The notes below the pieces were generated by a model. That model made no database searches. It saw only the letters and a list, made by a program, of their open reading frames with translations, and was not told where the DNA came from. Position numbers and translations under genes: made by a program. From an uncultured Pseudomonadaceae bacterium (GTDB lineage Bacteria; Pseudomonadota; Gammaproteobacteria; Pseudomonadales; Pseudomonadaceae), in contig CANRHT010000284.1 of the NCBI GenBank assembly GCA_947630465.1, positions 1-12,099 on the forward strand: DNA of 12,099 bases, in the 5' to 3' direction. Below, piece after piece: positions 4,873 to 12,099 of this stretch; position 1 is the stretch's first letter; the number at the start of each line of letters is the position of its first letter.

Positions 4873-4905
4873 ATTGCCTGCGGCAGATAAGAAAAAGGGT
4901 GAACT

Positions 4906-5658
4906 ATGAAATTGAAGTTAGATGAAAACGGTCATGCTGTCTTGCGAGAGGGTAAGCCGGTATATGTGCATGAAGATGGCAAAGAAGTGGTTTTTGATGC
5001 CATTGATGCAACGGCAACTATTAATCGATTGAACATTGAGGCGCAAAAGCATCGAGAAACGAATCAATCTTTAGAGACACAGGTGAAAGCCTTTGAGGGG
5101 ATTGAAGATCCTAAAGCAGCTATCGAAGCGTTACGTACGGTGGCAAACCTTGATTCTAAAAAGCTAATCGATGCCGGTGAAGTCGATCAAGTGAAGACGG
5201 AGATTAGCAAAGCGTATCAAAGCCAGATTGATGAAATTAAAACAGCTAAAGATCAATTAGAGCAGCAACTTTATGCTGAAAAGATTGGTGGTGCTTTTTC
5301 ACGCTCCAAGCTAGTGGCTGAAAAACTAGCGATTCCGGTGGATTTAGTTCAAGCGGCATTTGGCTCGGCATTCAAGATCGAGGAGGGCCAAGTCGTTGCT
5401 TATGACGCGCACGGTCAAAAGATTTATAGCCGCGAAACACCTGGCGCTTTAGCAGGGTTTGACGAGGCATTAGAGGTGCTAGTGAATGCCTACCCCCACA
5501 AAGATCAGATTTTAAAAGGCTCAGGACAGTCGGGTAGTGGTGCGCGACAAGGGGGTGATGGGGGTCAAACGTTGAAGCGTTCAGAGATGAACACGCAGGA
5601 CAAGGCCGCGTTCATTCAAGAGCACGGTCAAGACGCGTATTTAAAACTTTCTAAATAA
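4906..5658 (+). CDS. scaffold-like capsid assembly protein
   Basis: Probable internal scaffold for procapsid assembly, 250 aa, directly before the major capsid gene as is usual for scaffolds. Residues about 35-63 and 93-128 are charged, heptad-like helices (coiled coil), followed by a conserved-looking block (about 133-203) with FSRSKLVAEKLAIP and an AYDAHGQKIYSRETPG segment. A flexible Gly/Ser-rich linker (205-220) precedes a small basic and polar C-terminal helical segment, which in scaffolds often contacts the shell. It resembles the uncharacterised family recently numbered DUF6651, named from memory. The ATG at 4906 follows AAGGGTGA. No protease motif is visible, so how it leaves the head is not clear. 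Confidence 0.72.
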   Translation: MKLKLDENGHAVLREGKPVYVHEDGKEVVFDAIDATATINRLNIEAQKHRETNQSLETQVKAFEGIEDPKAAIEALRTVANLDSKKLIDAGEVDQVKTEISKAYQSQIDEIKTAKDQLEQQLYAEKIGGAFSRSKLVAEKLAIPVDLVQAAFGSAFKIEEGQVVAYDAHGQKIYSRETPGALAGFDEALEVLVNAYPHKDQILKGSGQSGSGARQGGDGGQTLKRSEMNTQDKAAFIQEHGQDAYLKLSK

Positions 5659-5669
5659 AGAGGTGAATG

Positions 5670-6626
5670 ATGGGAACCACAGTTAATAACGATATGGTGA
5701 TTTACAACCGTCTCGCACAGACGGCGTACTTGGAGCGACTTCAAGACAATCTGGATGTGTTTAACACCGCGTCAAATGGTGCGATTCTGTACCGAAACGA
5801 AATTATTGAAGGCGATTTCGATAAAAAAGCCTTCTACAAAGTGGGCGGCAGCATTGAGCACCGTGATGTGAACTCAACAAACAAGGTCACGCCTAAGAAA
5901 ATTGGTGCTGGCGAAGCGGTGGGTGTGAAGTGTCCGTACAAATACGGGCCTTATGCGTCGACTGAAGAAGCATTTAAACGTCGTGCACGTACCCCTGAAG
6001 AGTTCGCTATGCTGATCGGTCAGGATATGGCTGATGCACTCATGGAAGGCCGTCTTAAGTACGCCTTAGCAGCACTTGATGCTGCGATTGGTGGTAACGC
6101 TGCGATGGTCGCTAAGGGTGATATTGCGACAGACGGGCGTAAAGCGTTAACCCGCGGGATGCGCACCTTTGGTGACAAGTTTGGTCGTATTGCGCTTTGG
6201 GTCATGAATTCCGATACGTACTTCGATATTGTTGATGACGCATTAACCAAGCAGATTTATGGCGAATCTGAAATTGTGGTTTACGGTGGTCTGCCAGGCA
6301 CTATGGGTAAGCCTGTGCTCGTAACCGACCAAGTGCCGACCGATAAAGCGTTTGGCTTACAAGGAGGTGCCATTCAGGTGGTTGAGTCTCAGGCCCCGGG
6401 CTTCCGCACTTGGGATATTAACGACGAGGAAAACTTGGCGATTGGTATCCGTGGTGAAGGTACCTTTAACTTGGAGCTCATGGGCTACAGCTGGAAAGAC
6501 ACGGTAGGCGGTGCTAATCCAACGCTTGCAGCGATTGGTGCGGCAGCTAACTGGCAGAAGCATGCAGGCAGCAACAAGATGACTGCAGGTGTTCTTCTGG
6601 ATTTAGCGGCCTCAACTGAGCCTTAA
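5670..6626 (+). CDS. phage major capsid protein (gp13-like, HK97 fold)
   Basis: Main shell protein, 318 aa. Two ATG codons occur in tandem at 5667 and 5670. The second is preferred because the AGAGGTGA Shine-Dalgarno ends at 5666, leaving it only 3 bases while the first has none. The protein starts MGTTVNNDMVIYN and has family-like landmarks: an E-loop/N-arm region with EIIEGDFDKKAFYK, GEAVGVKCPYKYGP, a helical ALAALDAAIGGNA segment, WVMNSDTYFDIVDDAL, and GLPGTMGKPVLVTDQVP. There is no N-terminal cleaved delta domain, consistent with a separate scaffold gene. A UUCG-looped terminator follows 20 bases past the stop. The role is secure; the exact subfamily is from memory. Confidence 0.9.
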   Translation: MGTTVNNDMVIYNRLAQTAYLERLQDNLDVFNTASNGAILYRNEIIEGDFDKKAFYKVGGSIEHRDVNSTNKVTPKKIGAGEAVGVKCPYKYGPYASTEEAFKRRARTPEEFAMLIGQDMADALMEGRLKYALAALDAAIGGNAAMVAKGDIATDGRKALTRGMRTFGDKFGRIALWVMNSDTYFDIVDDALTKQIYGESEIVVYGGLPGTMGKPVLVTDQVPTDKAFGLQGGAIQVVESQAPGFRTWDINDEENLAIGIRGEGTFNLELMGYSWKDTVGGANPTLAAIGAAANWQKHAGSNKMTAGVLLDLAASTEP

Positions 6627-8963: not shown

Positions 8964-9370
8964 TGCAATCTCAAATTCGGGCGGCCCTAGAGGTAAGGCT
9001 TGATGCCTTTGCTAAAGAGGAGGGGCTGCGTGTCGCCTGGGAGGGCAGAACGTTCAAACCAATTACTAGGCAGTCGCACTTACGAGCATTTGTTATGCCA
9101 GCTAGTTCAGACAGTAATGACTTAGCAGGGCAGCACAGGCTGTATCGAGGAGTCTTCCAAGTTGATTTGGTGATGGTGAGTGGTACTGGTATGGGCGATA
9201 TAGAAAGGAAAGCGGCTCAAGTTATTGCTCACTTTCCAAAAAATCTGCGGTTGCCGGTCGAGAATCAGTTTGTACAACTTATCTCTGTCATGAGCATGGG
9301 GCCGAAGTTACCACAAGATGGTTTTATTGCCGTGCCGTTGACTTCTTACTATCGAATGGATGTGATATGA
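8960..9370 (+). CDS. tail terminator-like protein (DUF4128 family)
   Basis: A 136-aa protein expected to cap the tail tube at the head-proximal end and fix tube length, as lambda gpU does. It has the family pattern: a helical start with QIRAALEVRLDAFA, then VAWEGRTFKP, YLRAFVMP-like HLRAFVMPAS, GQHRLYRGVFQVDLVMVSGTGMGDIERKAAQVIAHFP, and a C-terminal VPLTSYYRMDVI strand. Start at the first of two tandem ATG codons (8960), 9 bases after AAGGAGGT. It overlaps both neighbours by ATGA. Confidence 0.8.
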   Translation: MMQSQIRAALEVRLDAFAKEEGLRVAWEGRTFKPITRQSHLRAFVMPASSDSNDLAGQHRLYRGVFQVDLVMVSGTGMGDIERKAAQVIAHFPKNLRLPVENQFVQLISVMSMGPKLPQDGFIAVPLTSYYRMDVI

Positions 9371-9807
9371 GCGAGCACGTTTCACTAGCCGTTGGTACTA
9401 CCGTTTCTATTTCCCCCACATTACCCTCTACTTACGATGTCGCTGGGTATCGGGCGCTTACGTATACGCCCATAAAAGGGGTTCGCGATGCAGGTGATAT
9501 TGCCGAGCAGCATGTCACTATTACTCGTGCGCCCATACACCTGAACTATAGCTACCAAGAGCGGGTGGGACGAGTCCTACCGTCTTTATCGTGGGAGATT
9601 CTTCGATTAAAGAATAACTCAGGGCAGCAGATGTTGTTAGATGCGTTTTTGGGAGACGCTCAAGCATTTCAGATTGAGCATGCGGATGGCACGCAGCTGT
9701 ATTTCAGCGCCACAGTAAAGGGCCGTACCCGAGTTATTAAAGAGGGCTCTACGTTATTAGCGTATCGAATTGAGTTAGATGTTCAACGAGAAGTGATCGA
9801 GGTTTAG
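9367..9807 (+). CDS. phage tail tube-like protein, first copy
   Basis: A 146-aa protein directly after the tail terminator, the usual place of the tail tube. It has mostly beta character: GTTVSISPTLP (10-20), an ALTYTPIKGVRDAGDI loop (30-45), HVTITRAPIHLNYSY, then the helix-containing SLSWEILRLKNNSGQQMLLDAF, FQIEHADGTQLYFSATVKGRTRV and a terminal LLAYRIELDVQREVIEV. A beta-sandwich with one helix fits tail-tube proteins. It is followed by a terminator, a Bro-N gene and then a second, longer tail-tube-like gene. Which of the two forms the main tube is not clear. Confidence 0.68.
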   Translation: MSEHVSLAVGTTVSISPTLPSTYDVAGYRALTYTPIKGVRDAGDIAEQHVTITRAPIHLNYSYQERVGRVLPSLSWEILRLKNNSGQQMLLDAFLGDAQAFQIEHADGTQLYFSATVKGRTRVIKEGSTLLAYRIELDVQREVIEV

Positions 9808-9837: not shown

Positions 9838-9860
9838 AGCTCCTTAATTGGAGCTTTTTT
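9838..9860 (+). terminator. intrinsic terminator between the first tail gene and the Bro-N gene
   Basis: A perfect 6-bp stem, AGCTCC (9838-9843) with GGAGCT (9850-9855), surrounds a TTAATT loop and is followed by T through 9860. The next ATG is only 17 bases later, so a Bro-N promoter downstream of it has no room. Either the Bro-N message is read through this site, or its promoter lies upstream of the hairpin. Confidence 0.72.
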
Positions 9861-9876
9861 GTTTATAGGTACAAAG

Positions 9877-10377
9877 ATGAAAGAACTTATGTTTCAAAAC
9901 CAACCTATTAGATTGGTTGAGGTTGATGGAAAAAAATGGGCTAGTGCTGCGGATATTGCTCAAGCTCTAGGTTACTCAAGGGCTGATTCGGTAACGCGTT
10001 TATACGACAAACATAAAGCTGAGTTTTCTGAGTCAATGACGCAAATTGTCGAGACCACTGGTTCGGGGGTCTCGGGAAACCTTATTGTTAGAGCTCGAGT
10101 TTTTAGTTTACGTGGGGCGCATCTTATAGGTATGTTTGCACGTACAAAAAAAGCTCAAGCATTTCGTCGTTGGGTATTAGATATTATTGAGCATCACCAG
10201 GTGGCCCCATCTCTAATCCAAGAGTGGTACGAAGCTAAAGCGGCTCTGGATGCACAAGAGCAGTTTGCCAGCTTGTGTGGCAAGGGTCTTAGTGAGCACC
10301 GGCGTAAGAGGCCGCCGATAGCGCAGCGACTAAATCTAGTTACGAAAAAACTTCAGCCCTCATTGCAGTTTACTTAG
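9877..10377 (+). CDS. Bro-N domain protein (phage antirepressor-like), moron candidate
   Basis: A 166-aa protein. The ATG at 9877 has AGGT 6 bases upstream and is preferred over an upstream in-frame TTG. The Bro-N fold pattern is clear: MFQNQPIRLVEVDGKKWASAADIAQALGYSRA (5-36), a VTRLYDKHKAEF helix, and VRARVFSLRGAHLIGMFARTKKAQAFRRWVLDIIE (71-105). No KilA-C or ANT C-terminal domain is evident. A helical tail (111-137) is followed by a basic CGKGLSEHRRKRPP segment and an amphipathic end. Bro-N proteins bind DNA, and many are antirepressors or regulators. It is an odd resident of a tail operon, between two tail-tube-like genes and flanked by terminators on both sides, so it was probably inserted. 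Structural use is unlikely. Confidence 0.82.
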   Translation: MKELMFQNQPIRLVEVDGKKWASAADIAQALGYSRADSVTRLYDKHKAEFSESMTQIVETTGSGVSGNLIVRARVFSLRGAHLIGMFARTKKAQAFRRWVLDIIEHHQVAPSLIQEWYEAKAALDAQEQFASLCGKGLSEHRRKRPPIAQRLNLVTKKLQPSLQFT

Positions 10378-10399
10378 CCGCCCTATAGGCGGTTTTTTT
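10378..10399 (+). terminator. intrinsic terminator after the Bro-N gene (first of tandem pair)
   Basis: A CCGCC (10378-10382) / GGCGG (10388-10392) stem with CTATA loop is followed by seven T (10393-10399). It begins directly at the Bro-N stop codon. A-T and G-U pairs could extend the stem by two. Confidence 0.75.
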
Positions 10400-10442: not shown

Positions 10443-11084
10443 ATGGCAGTTCAATTACCAGATGGTTCGATGGTTTCGTTAGCGGTGGAGTACCAACCCG
10501 CTGTTAAGGTTATCGCAGCCACAAATGCAGAAAAAGCCGTTTTAACACTGGCGAGTGGCCATGATGTTGATGAAGGGGACTTGTTTGAGTTGGTGTCAGG
10601 CTGGTCCGGTGTGACAAACCGCGTTTTTAAAGCGGAGGACGTGAGCGGCGACACAGTGACGATTAAGGCAGACACCTCTGATCTGAGACGATTTAAAGCA
10701 GGGGCAGGTATTGGAACACTACGAAAAATCACGAAGTGGGAGGAAATTCAGCAGATTTTAAACTTTGAAGGGCAGGGAGGAGAGGCGCAGTTTGTGCAGT
10801 ATGAGTTCTTAAACAGCGATATTGAAGGGCAGATTCCTAGTAAATACAGCGCCCAGTCAATCTCAATCAGCATTGCTGATGATGAAAGCCTTCCGGGTTA
10901 TCAAGCATGGTTAGCTGCGTCTGAAACACGATCTATTCGTGCATTGGAGTTATTGCTGCCCAATGGTTCACAGATTTTCTATAACGGCTACCCATCCATG
11001 AACCCGACGCCAACGACCACTAAAGGTCAGGTGATGGCGGTTGCTGCCTCGTACTCCATTAACGGGCGTCCAGTTCGTTACTAG
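10443..11084 (+). CDS. phage tail tube protein, second copy (TTP_3-like)
   Basis: A 213-aa protein with GGAG 7 bases upstream of the ATG. Residues about 35-60 (ASGHDVDEGDLFELVSGWSGVTNRVFKAE) and the following VSGDTVTIKADTSD, FKAGAGIGTLRKI, and FLNSDIEGQIPSKYSAQSISISIADDESLPGYQAWL blocks match the pattern of siphovirus tail-tube proteins of the TTP_3 type. The C-terminus carries beta strands around LLPNGSQIFYNGYPSMNPTPT. It likely polymerises into the tail tube around the tape measure. The presence of a second tube-like gene upstream may reflect a two-component tube or a cap/tube pair. Confidence 0.8.
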   Translation: MAVQLPDGSMVSLAVEYQPAVKVIAATNAEKAVLTLASGHDVDEGDLFELVSGWSGVTNRVFKAEDVSGDTVTIKADTSDLRRFKAGAGIGTLRKITKWEEIQQILNFEGQGGEAQFVQYEFLNSDIEGQIPSKYSAQSISISIADDESLPGYQAWLAASETRSIRALELLLPNGSQIFYNGYPSMNPTPTTTKGQVMAVAASYSINGRPVRY

Positions 11085-11109: not shown

Positions 11110-11134
11110 GCCTTGCTGACTGCGAGGCTTTTTT
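11110..11134 (+). terminator. intrinsic terminator between tail tube and tail chaperone genes
   Basis: A 7-bp stem, GCCTTGC (11110-11116) with GCGAGGC (11122-11128), has one G-U pair, a 5-nt loop, and is followed by six T (11129-11134) and then a C and five more T. It separates the abundant tail tube message from the low-abundance chaperones, where reduced expression makes sense. Confidence 0.72.
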
Positions 11135-11152: not shown

Positions 11153-11473
11153 ATGGCTAAAAAACAAACATTTTCTCTAAATCCTGATCCTACCTTTACC
11201 ATTGCCGTTAAGATTCCGGTGGCAGGGGGTAAAACAACCGCTATTGATGTGACCTATAAGCACATGACGCGCACAGAAGTCGATGAATACCTAGAGCGTA
11301 ATAAAGATCGTGATGATGTGGAGTCAGCGATGGATATTATGGCGGGCTGGGGGTTGACCGAGGAGTTCAACCAAGAGAACGTGGCGCGATTGTTTGAAAA
11401 CTATGGGGGTTCTGGGCGTGCCGTGATCCAGACCTACTTACGTGAAATTTGGGGTGCACGCGAGGGAAACTAA
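11153..11473 (+). CDS. phage tail assembly chaperone, G-like frame
   Basis: A 106-aa protein, the equivalent of lambda gpG, which helps polymerise tail tube around the tape measure. It starts at ATG 11153 with AGGTG close upstream. The N-terminal half is beta-rich (MAKKQTFSLNPDPTFTIAVKIPVAGGKTTAIDVTYKHMTRTEV), followed by a helical region with DVESAMDIMAGWGL and ENVARLFENYGGSGRAVIQTYLREIWGA. It ends ..EGN-stop, and the last three sense codons form the slippery heptamer G GGA AAC, which lets ribosomes shift -1 into the next frame. Its position after the tail tube is as in lambda-like siphoviruses. Confidence 0.85.
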   Translation: MAKKQTFSLNPDPTFTIAVKIPVAGGKTTAIDVTYKHMTRTEVDEYLERNKDRDDVESAMDIMAGWGLTEEFNQENVARLFENYGGSGRAVIQTYLREIWGAREGN

Positions 11474-11793
11474 AAGCCATTGCACAAGCGCTCTATAGTT
11501 CAGGAGTGACAGAGGAGCAGGCTGAGCAGCTTGCTGCCTTTGGCCTGTCGCTTGATGATTTCGAGCAAGAAACGATAGAGATCTGGCCTGAGAATTTGTT
11601 GCCTATGCAGGTCTTTCAGGCAATGGGCACGCAATGGCGAATGGGATTTAATGGGCCGATAGGCTTGGACTACAAGGTGCTGCCGATGATGATCAAGCAG
11701 CTTGGAGTGCCTAAAAAGGAACGTAAGCGGGTATTTGATGATGTGATGGTGATGGAAAGGGCGGCGTTGGAGGTGATGAGGGAGGAAGGCTAG
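11449..11793 (+). CDS. T-like portion of tail assembly chaperone (DUF1799-like), made by -1 frameshift
   Basis: An open frame -1 to the preceding gene, entered at 11470 (CTA). It has no credible start: the only early candidates are a TTG at 11449 lacking a Shine-Dalgarno and a GTG at 11506 with a Shine-Dalgarno too close. The expected product is a fusion of the 106 upstream residues plus 107 encoded here, 213 aa in all. Landmarks are WPENLLPMQVFQAMGTQWRMGFNGPIGLDYKVLP and VMVMERAALEVM, the pattern of phage DUF1799 proteins that follow G-like genes. In lambda the GT fusion binds the tape measure through T and the tube through G. Confidence 0.85.
   Translation: MGCTRGKLKAIAQALYSSGVTEEQAEQLAAFGLSLDDFEQETIEIWPENLLPMQVFQAMGTQWRMGFNGPIGLDYKVLPMMIKQLGVPKKERKRVFDDVMVMERAALEVMREEG
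11464..11470 (+). promoter_or_regulatory. programmed -1 ribosomal frameshift site GGGAAAC
   Basis: Slippery heptamer of form X XXY YYZ in the correct register for the upstream gene (codons gaG GGA AAC then TAA). After a -1 slip the tRNAs re-pair on GGG AAA and reading continues CTA AAA GCC into the downstream ORF. It differs only in the last base from the lambda G/T slippery site GGGAAAG. A GGGGTG (11451-11456) lying 7 bases upstream could act as a stimulatory internal Shine-Dalgarno. No strong downstream stem-loop is clear. Translational use is inferred from the precise arrangement. Confidence 0.85.
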
Positions 11794-11808
11794 GCTAGAA
11801 GTAAATGT

Positions 11809-11838
11809 TTGACCGGTTGCAATCATGTGGTGTAGGAT
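11809..11838 (+). promoter_or_regulatory. candidate sigma70-type promoter
   Basis: TTGACC (11809-11814) matches five of six -35 bases. An 18-bp spacer leads to TAGGAT (11833-11838), which matches four of six -10 bases. It lies 15 bases past the stop of the chaperone frame, in a region with no long ORF, and would give a transcript starting near 11845. The match alone is moderate. Confidence 0.4.
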
Positions 11839-11841
11839 GGT

Positions 11842-11926
11842 AGCTCTTAACCCAACGCAGGGTGTTAGGCTCTCAAGATGTGCTTGATTGAGCGGTTAGC
11901 GCCCATATATAAGTCATATGGACTTA
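11842..11926 (+). promoter_or_regulatory. structured leader region with alternative hairpins
   Basis: Successive potential stems: AGC-TAA-CCC (11842-11853) with GGG-TTA-GCT (11860-11871), with bulges; TCAAG (11873-11877) with CTTGA (11883-11887), looped by ATGTG; and two mutually exclusive perfect stems, CCATAT (11903-11908) with ATATGG (11916-11921), and TAAGTC (11910-11915) with GACTTA (11921-11926). This looks like a foldable 5' untranslated leader. No known riboswitch class is recognised. Confidence 0.3.
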
Positions 11927-11931
11927 GAGTT

Positions 11932-11958
11932 TTAATCTTAAGGAGAGGATATGATTAA
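11932..11958 (+). promoter_or_regulatory. inverted repeat enclosing Shine-Dalgarno and start codon
   Basis: TTAATC (11932-11937) is complementary to GATTAA (11953-11958). The 15-nt loop holds AAGGAG and the stem covers the end of the ATG. Such a stem could restrict ribosome access to the 18-codon ORF until melted. It is A/T-rich and therefore weak, so it may be temperature- or ligand-sensitive or chance. Confidence 0.25.
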
Positions 11959-12007
11959 TTTACTGGCCACTAATGCTGCTGCGATGGAACAGGATTTCGG
12001 CTACTAA
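11951..12007 (+). CDS. candidate 18-aa peptide ORF with strong Shine-Dalgarno
   Basis: The frame encodes MINLLATNAAAMEQDFGY. AAGGAG lies 6 bases upstream of the ATG, a better ribosome site than many structural genes in this window have. The peptide is short, hydrophobic at the start and acidic near the end. It could be a leader peptide or a truncated remnant, or an initiation site decoupled from a lost gene. There is no homology I can recognise. It lies where a tape measure gene would normally begin. Confidence 0.35.
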   Translation: MINLLATNAAAMEQDFGY

Positions 12008-12017
12008 TTTTTATAAT

Positions 12018-12068
12018 TTGTAAGCTACAATGAAAAGGCATCTTTGAAATTCTGTATAGTACATAGAA
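12018..12068. repeat. two TGTA-N3-TACA dyads in the AT-rich end
   Basis: TTGTA-AGC-TACAA (12018-12030) and TGTA-TAG-TACA (12053-12063), the latter inside a wider imperfect dyad TTCT...AGAA (12050-12068). Centres are 34 bp apart, about three helical turns. They could be operator half-pairs. No regulator is assigned. A TATAAT (12012-12017) partly precedes the first. Confidence 0.3.
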
Positions 12069-12099
12069 CTGTGTAATTTTGATAAAAACCCCCTTAATT

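Follow-up and report, generated by a model that had tools for sequence, protein, structure and literature searches.

Frameshifting in the tail assembly chaperone genes of phages is reportedly a kind already known from Xu, Hendrix and Duda in 2004. Among the closest known systems is phage lambda, where the two genes following the major tail gene are joined into a G-T fusion by a -1 shift on a heptamer of the form GGGAAAN close to the end of G; the lambda heptamer is GGGAAAG, and the stop lies 15 nt further on. In lambda, as described in PMC5009743, G associates with the tape measure protein, and G-T recruits the major tail protein through its T part. Sites at which the heptamer touches the stop codon have already been published as predictions: between gp18 and gp19 of Burkholderia phage KL1, annotated as a joined CDS, GGGAAAC directly precedes TGA (PMC3483164), and Acinetobacter phage Loki carries an A6C heptamer in the same position between gp12 and gp13. 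Loki T matches KL1 T. The heptamers AAAAAAC and GGGAAAC also appear in print for phiCbK-type phages, and a chaperone frameshift is described for phage Solomon, which has structural proteins resembling those of T1. Shift rates of 6% and 7% were measured, according to an excerpt from the GeneTack authors, for two genes of an HK97-like tail chaperone cluster, and serve as a rough guide (PMC3711429). Outside tail assembly, the insertion sequence IS1 has a bacterial AAAAAAC in register within the insA-insB' overlap, but its stop lies 15 nt downstream and its product is a transposase; we take IS1 to be the insertion sequence cluster for which AAAAAAC shifting has been proven. Such an AAAAAAC cluster is named as a proven case in PMC4066793.

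The window analysed here, a whole contig of 12,099 bases from a draft genome that is 76% complete in 308 contigs, carries a run of phage structural genes, in which an overlapping pair of reading frames, the second in the -1 frame, lies downstream of the major tail gene according to the gene map and profiles. The features of this region are as follows.

Gene order in the run: terminase, DUF4055 protein, major capsid protein, tail completion/neck protein, tail terminator, major tail protein, then the G/T pair.
10443 to 11084, forward strand: gene for the major tail (tube) protein, next upstream of G (PF08813 Phage_tail_3, E 4.7e-42; phrog_584 major tail protein, E 1.6e-62).
11110 to 11128, forward strand: terminator-like hairpin between the major tail gene and G, a possible attenuator (pattern scan, consensus match only).
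11153 to 11473, forward strand: G, tail assembly chaperone of 106 aa, ending in R E G N and the stop (PF08748 Phage_TAC_4, E 5.1e-26; phrog_17368 positions 8-105 of 213).
11451 to 11456, forward strand: GGGGTG, Shine-Dalgarno-like, 7 nt before the heptamer (duplex -6.0 kcal/mol; family-level synonymous control p 0.18).
11464 to 11470, forward strand: slippery heptamer G GGA AAC in the register of G (direct reading; same heptamer class at the stop in 128 of 149 loci).
11471 to 11473, forward strand: TAA that ends G and directly abuts the heptamer (0 nt between them; direct reading; adjacency in 72 of 86 clusters at 70% identity).
11470 to 11793, forward strand: T part, read after the -1 shift as CTA AAA GCC and onwards, 107 aa plus stop, DUF1799 (PF08809, E 9.1e-30; phrog_17368 positions 104-210 of 213, contiguous with G).

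The locus is very probably a programmed -1 ribosomal frameshift of the lambda type, in a G/GT tail assembly chaperone pair of a tailed phage; this high confidence concerns the frameshift itself, and the role of the stop codon is graded separately below. The last codons of G are CGC GAG GGA AAC TAA, the -1 frame stays open between 11446 and 11793, and a shift would join 106 codons (11153-11470) to 107 codons (11470-11790) in a product of 213 aa. An earlier note on this DNA had read the same register, the same contact between GGGAAAC and TAA, the same open DUF1799-like frame and the same fusion length, all of which are borne out. Its description of the site as lambda-style holds for the joining of G to T by a -1 shift at GGGAAAC and does not extend to the heptamer or to the distance of the stop, in both of which lambda differs; the lambda G and T proteins presumably also belong to a family other than Phage_TAC_4 and DUF1799. 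Both Pfam matches lie far above the cut-off (91.7 bits against 21.1 for Phage_TAC_4; 103.2 against 26 for DUF1799), and a single 213-position profile, phrog_17368, spans both frames, as would be expected of a family of fusions. In PHROGs and in many RefSeq phage entries the G and T frames both carry the label 'tail length tape measure protein', although they are the chaperones rather than the tape measure. Neither G nor T had an NCBIfam match or a meaningful sequence match among solved structures. Used as a query, the 213-aa fusion found 0 of 140 candidates at E <= 0.001, a result that counts against a commonly deposited fusion and says nothing on expression.

Relatives of T were gathered from phage records (20 fetched of 1093 with a T match), viral contigs and genomes, one set being the best 80 of 543. 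T was matched in 143 of 144 records and G in 118, the window and its own copy (L008) both being counted. In each of these 118, T is in the -1 register and GGGAAAC, AAAAAAC or GGGAAAT stands in register, touching the stop in 110 and separated from it by one codon in 8. Among the 25 loci lacking a G match, the heptamer lies at 0 nt in 16, at 3 nt in 3 and at 9, 27, 51 or 54 nt in 4; of the remaining two, one has AAAAAAG at 18 nt and the other (L111) has no upstream open reading frame. In a wider set of 149 rows, which includes the window, leaves out its copy and adds 8 phages, RRRAAAY stands at 0 nt in 128 (as GGGAAAC, AAAAAAC or GGGAAAT), at 3 nt in 11 and farther on (9-54 nt) in 4, with AAAAAAG in 1 and none in 5; one of these last (L051) is an artefact of the choice of reading frame and has AAAAAAC at 0 nt by the other count. 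These loci are neither independent nor a random draw and contain near-duplicates (L001/L024, L005/L102, L016/L017), hence they were also grouped into 86 clusters at 70% identity, with the heptamer at 0 nt in 72, at 3 nt in 5 and elsewhere in 4, AAAAAAG in 1 and none in 4. No control reading frame ended in XXXYYYZ before its stop (0 of 622; at least 120 aa, stop to stop, taken from the two strands of the relatives' loci and including many that are not genes), and set against the 128 of 149 loci this indicates that the junction is not due to chance.

Two loci (L038, L040) have GGGAAAT against TAA, the only AAT heptamers in the 149 rows. The coliphages HK578, HK639 and SRT8 share the DUF1799-type T and have AAAAAAC against the stop, but among their enterobacterial relatives four fetched phages of Klebsiella, Escherichia and Dickeya (L149, L150, L151, L153) lack the heptamer; by our reading they carry a different slippery motif within the same family, an A_AAG or A_AAA tetramer lying against the stop or close to it.

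The bases of the heptamer are held beyond what the encoded protein calls for. In the 81 of 86 clusters with RRRAAAY (four without a heptamer and one with AAAAAAG were left out, a selection that favours the result), the glycine codon at the heptamer is GGA in 36 of 36 (4.7 expected given codon usage in these genes), the lysine codon is AAA in 45 of 45 (21.0 expected) and the asparagine codon is AAC in 80 of 81 (53.2 expected). The preceding codon ends in the base X in 81 of 81 clusters against 31.3 expected, a partly circular figure given that clusters were chosen by their heptamer; the GGA and AAC figures are fairer, under the same cluster selection. The nearest named relative of T is in a locus of Paenalcaligenes hominis DSM 26613 (L024; T 86% identical). 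Between the window and this locus, 14 of 21 differences in the 60 nt upstream of the heptamer fall at third positions of G, and 34 of 56 in the 318 nt downstream fall at third positions of T; the pattern of differences thus changes frame at the heptamer. In HK578 (L022) and one further locus (L107), G and T overlap by only 7 nt, so a shift is possible only on the heptamer itself. Directly past the shift point, all 15 of the T proteins aligned have the same lysine and leucine.

Alternative origins of the T product were weighed against this pattern. T might be translated independently, by re-initiation or from a weak start coupled to termination of G, and the T frame of the window does contain a TTG at 11449, before the heptamer, and a GTG at 11506, from which the product would keep the whole DUF1799 match (begins 11539); the first ATG, at 11605, lies inside that match. 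The TTG has no Shine-Dalgarno-like bases just upstream, and the AGGA before the GTG abuts it without spacing. The claim that the T frame lacks a usable start was therefore fair insofar as its candidates are weak, and too strict insofar as the GTG keeps a slight chance. The P. hominis T frame contains no open reading frame of at least 80 aa beginning with ATG, GTG or TTG, and in 43 of 82 clusters the T frame is free of these codons up to 15 codons beyond the heptamer; moreover, the conserved lysine and leucine lie upstream of the GTG, and the heptamer codons are fixed beyond coding need. Existing annotation favours an independent start on its face. Among the DUF1799-type phage records fetched, 19 of 20 are annotated, and T is given its own start in 16, placed 18-165 nt past the G stop in 12, at the stop in 1 and before it in 3; it is absent in 3 (HK639, egaa, tunus), and a joined CDS appears in none of the 19. 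These records bear out the expectation that standard gene finding would mis-annotate the T frame. We regard independent initiation as improbable. Slippage of RNA polymerase on an A run, in place of the ribosome, would suit the AAAAAAC relatives, which have runs of at least six A, but in the window and in 36 of 81 clusters the heptamer is GGGAAAC or GGGAAAT and offers no more than three A, and register and T frame are kept nonetheless; this reading is very improbable. Equally so is a sequencing error or a decayed gene, which the fragmented draft assembly might have suggested: the same junction recurs in isolate genomes and sequenced phages, both frames show an excess of differences at third positions, and the junction shared by the relatives already refutes such an origin. 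Against a programmed ribosomal frameshift stand the poor shifting of GGGAAAC in E. coli, the lack of database hits for the fusion, and the absence from the window of a clear 3' stimulator and of a visible tape measure gene.

The GGGGTG had been proposed as an internal Shine-Dalgarno stimulator. Its position 7 bases before the heptamer is correct, and a first look at 72 clusters gave stronger Shine-Dalgarno-like pairing located 2-6 nt ahead of the heptamer (means of -2.9 to -3.3, control windows -1.45); however, the pairing is no stronger than under synonymous recoding (-3.39 versus -3.22 kcal/mol, p 0.18), with 4 of 72 loci at p < 0.05 on resampling. Amino-acid content accounts for the motif, and its role as a selected stimulator is not supported. 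Downstream structure in 80 nt shows a weak family-level excess over the same 72 clusters (mean z -1.03 versus -0.21 in the downstream control, p 2.4e-05; z < -2 in 21 of 72 versus 8 of 72). The window itself has no clear 3' stimulator in this 80-nt span (z -0.5) and no Rfam match at gathering scores.

Stop-adjacent heptamers extend to a second chaperone family. Phage_TAC_18, the T family of KL1, which is only remotely related to DUF1799, has one in 32 of 39 loci (43 surveyed, 4 lacking a T match; KL1 counted twice, as L154 and L166). The layout shared by DUF1799 and TAC_18 may be one old inheritance rather than convergence. In TAC_7, where heptamers were found in 26 of 30 loci and are mostly TTTTTTN, none of the 26 is at 0 nt and 4 are at 3 nt, G being taken here as the reading frame that covers the middle of the locus and not by profile. 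The same definition of G was applied to five TAC_13 loci, which gave GGGAAAG at 18 nt, no heptamer, and AAAAAAC at 0, 3 and 21 nt; the TAC_13 loci L229, L231, L232 and L233 hint that AAC may accompany near stops in another family. TAC_2 yielded a single match, below the cut-off.

The part played by the adjacent stop is a separate matter. The earlier note had suggested that the UAA could raise frameshifting by slowing decoding, which is doubtful, since in a bacterial system frameshifting fell when a stop was placed directly behind the HIV slippery site and disappeared when RF2 was supplied in excess (PMC4373837). Natural stop intercodons are named in the same text for Rous sarcoma and barley yellow dwarf viruses (PMC4373837), although these are RNA viruses read by eukaryotic ribosomes. 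A conserved stop may instead tune or gate the shift. GGGAAAC and AAAAAAC rank as low-efficiency heptamers in the E. coli reporter tests of Sharma et al. (PMC4066793), who suggest that bacterial ribosomes may check A-site pairing even after the shift, penalising the change from AAC to AAA (PMC4066793). Because the stop touches the heptamer, we propose that slippage may occur once translocation has carried both tRNAs into the E and P sites and brought the stop into the A site, where the release factor would compete. Slippage in this state would, by our own reasoning, relieve the penalty on AAC to AAA, and it would explain why AAC, despite its bad re-pairing in a monitored A site, is kept over the more efficient AAG; such post-translocation slippage is possible, though we would not call it probable.

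Tentatively, the stop could then be a working part of the signal, RRRAAAC plus stop being a unit selected in a large and old group of chaperones: the P-site tRNA-Asn would slip with the stop in the A site, the decoding centre would not check the poor re-pairing from AAC to AAA, and the ratio of G to G-T would depend on how strongly release factor 1 or 2 competes. There is about an even chance, however, that the stop touches the heptamer only as the end of G, takes no part in the shift and belongs to an inherited layout, for the stop could be kept just because G ends there. An hhalign comparison suggests remote homology between the T proteins of DUF1799 type and those of TAC_18 type (probability 94, E 9.7e-08), and common ancestry could explain the layout; the leucine-coding CTN after AAA also restricts the next G codon to TNN. 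In addition, displaced stops occur, at 3, 9, 27, 51 and 54 nt, and within TAC_18 the stop is adjacent in 1 of 6 divergent genome loci versus 31 of 33 from viral contigs and KL1. Against simple inheritance, a quick T tree requires at least 22 changes of stop codon identity and at least 13 switches between the XXX classes GGG and AAA, yet 72 of the 82 clusters with a heptamer keep the adjacency, which itself changes at least 9 times; the TAC_7 loci, with another heptamer, show no adjacency at all. A role for the stop is in turn weakened by the 11 loci of the wider set with the stop one codon on and the 4 with it 9-54 nt on, and IS1, with AAAAAAC so far from its stop, is a counterexample to a strict link between AAC and stop. 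A group-wide rule by which a heptamer inefficient in E. coli is held against the stop was not found in print within the open-licence literature searched.

Several observations concern the surroundings of the pair. The hairpin before G could set the expression of G relative to the major tail protein, and the HK639 and phiPMW records have a terminator annotated in the equivalent gap. An antirepressor-like gene (BRO-N / ORF11CD3) lies within the tail gene run (9859-10377, forward strand), flanked by terminator-like hairpins at 9838-9855 and 10376-10394, and looks like an inserted extra gene. Between the tail terminator and this gene, a 146-aa protein (9367-9807, forward strand) went unmatched in Pfam, PHROG and NCBIfam at the thresholds applied. 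No tape measure gene was present in the roughly 300 bases left after T (11794-12099), as the contig ends at 12099, and none was recognised by eye in the reading frame list for the 3 kb after T in the P. hominis locus. The same list, read without a profile search, contains on the reverse strand at about 4901-5915 an antidote-like helix-turn-helix frame and a HigB/RelE-like frame.

Collectively, the site is an ordinary example of a kind already known. The sequences themselves show its anatomy and register, its conservation, the selection on its codons and the frame switch; that the shift occurs, at what rate and with what function, we infer. Most ribosomes would read G to the UAA and produce the 106-aa chaperone, and a minority would slip back one base on G GGA AAC, tRNA-Gly moving from GGA to GGG and tRNA-Asn from AAC to AAA, and continue with CUA AAA GCC to yield the 213-aa G-T fusion. 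By analogy with lambda, G would coat the tape measure protein, the fusion would recruit the major tail protein through its T part, and neither would remain in the virion. Many phage annotations could be put right by a rule of RRRAAAC plus stop, T having been given its own start in 16 and left out in 3 of the 19 fetched records. In nature, GGGAAAC and AAAAAAC, inefficient in reporters, are kept almost without exception and mostly against the stop, so that the part of termination in bacterial -1 frameshifting becomes directly testable on natural sites. If the stop is indeed a working part of the signal, the ratio of G to G-T would link tail assembly to the termination capacity of the host.
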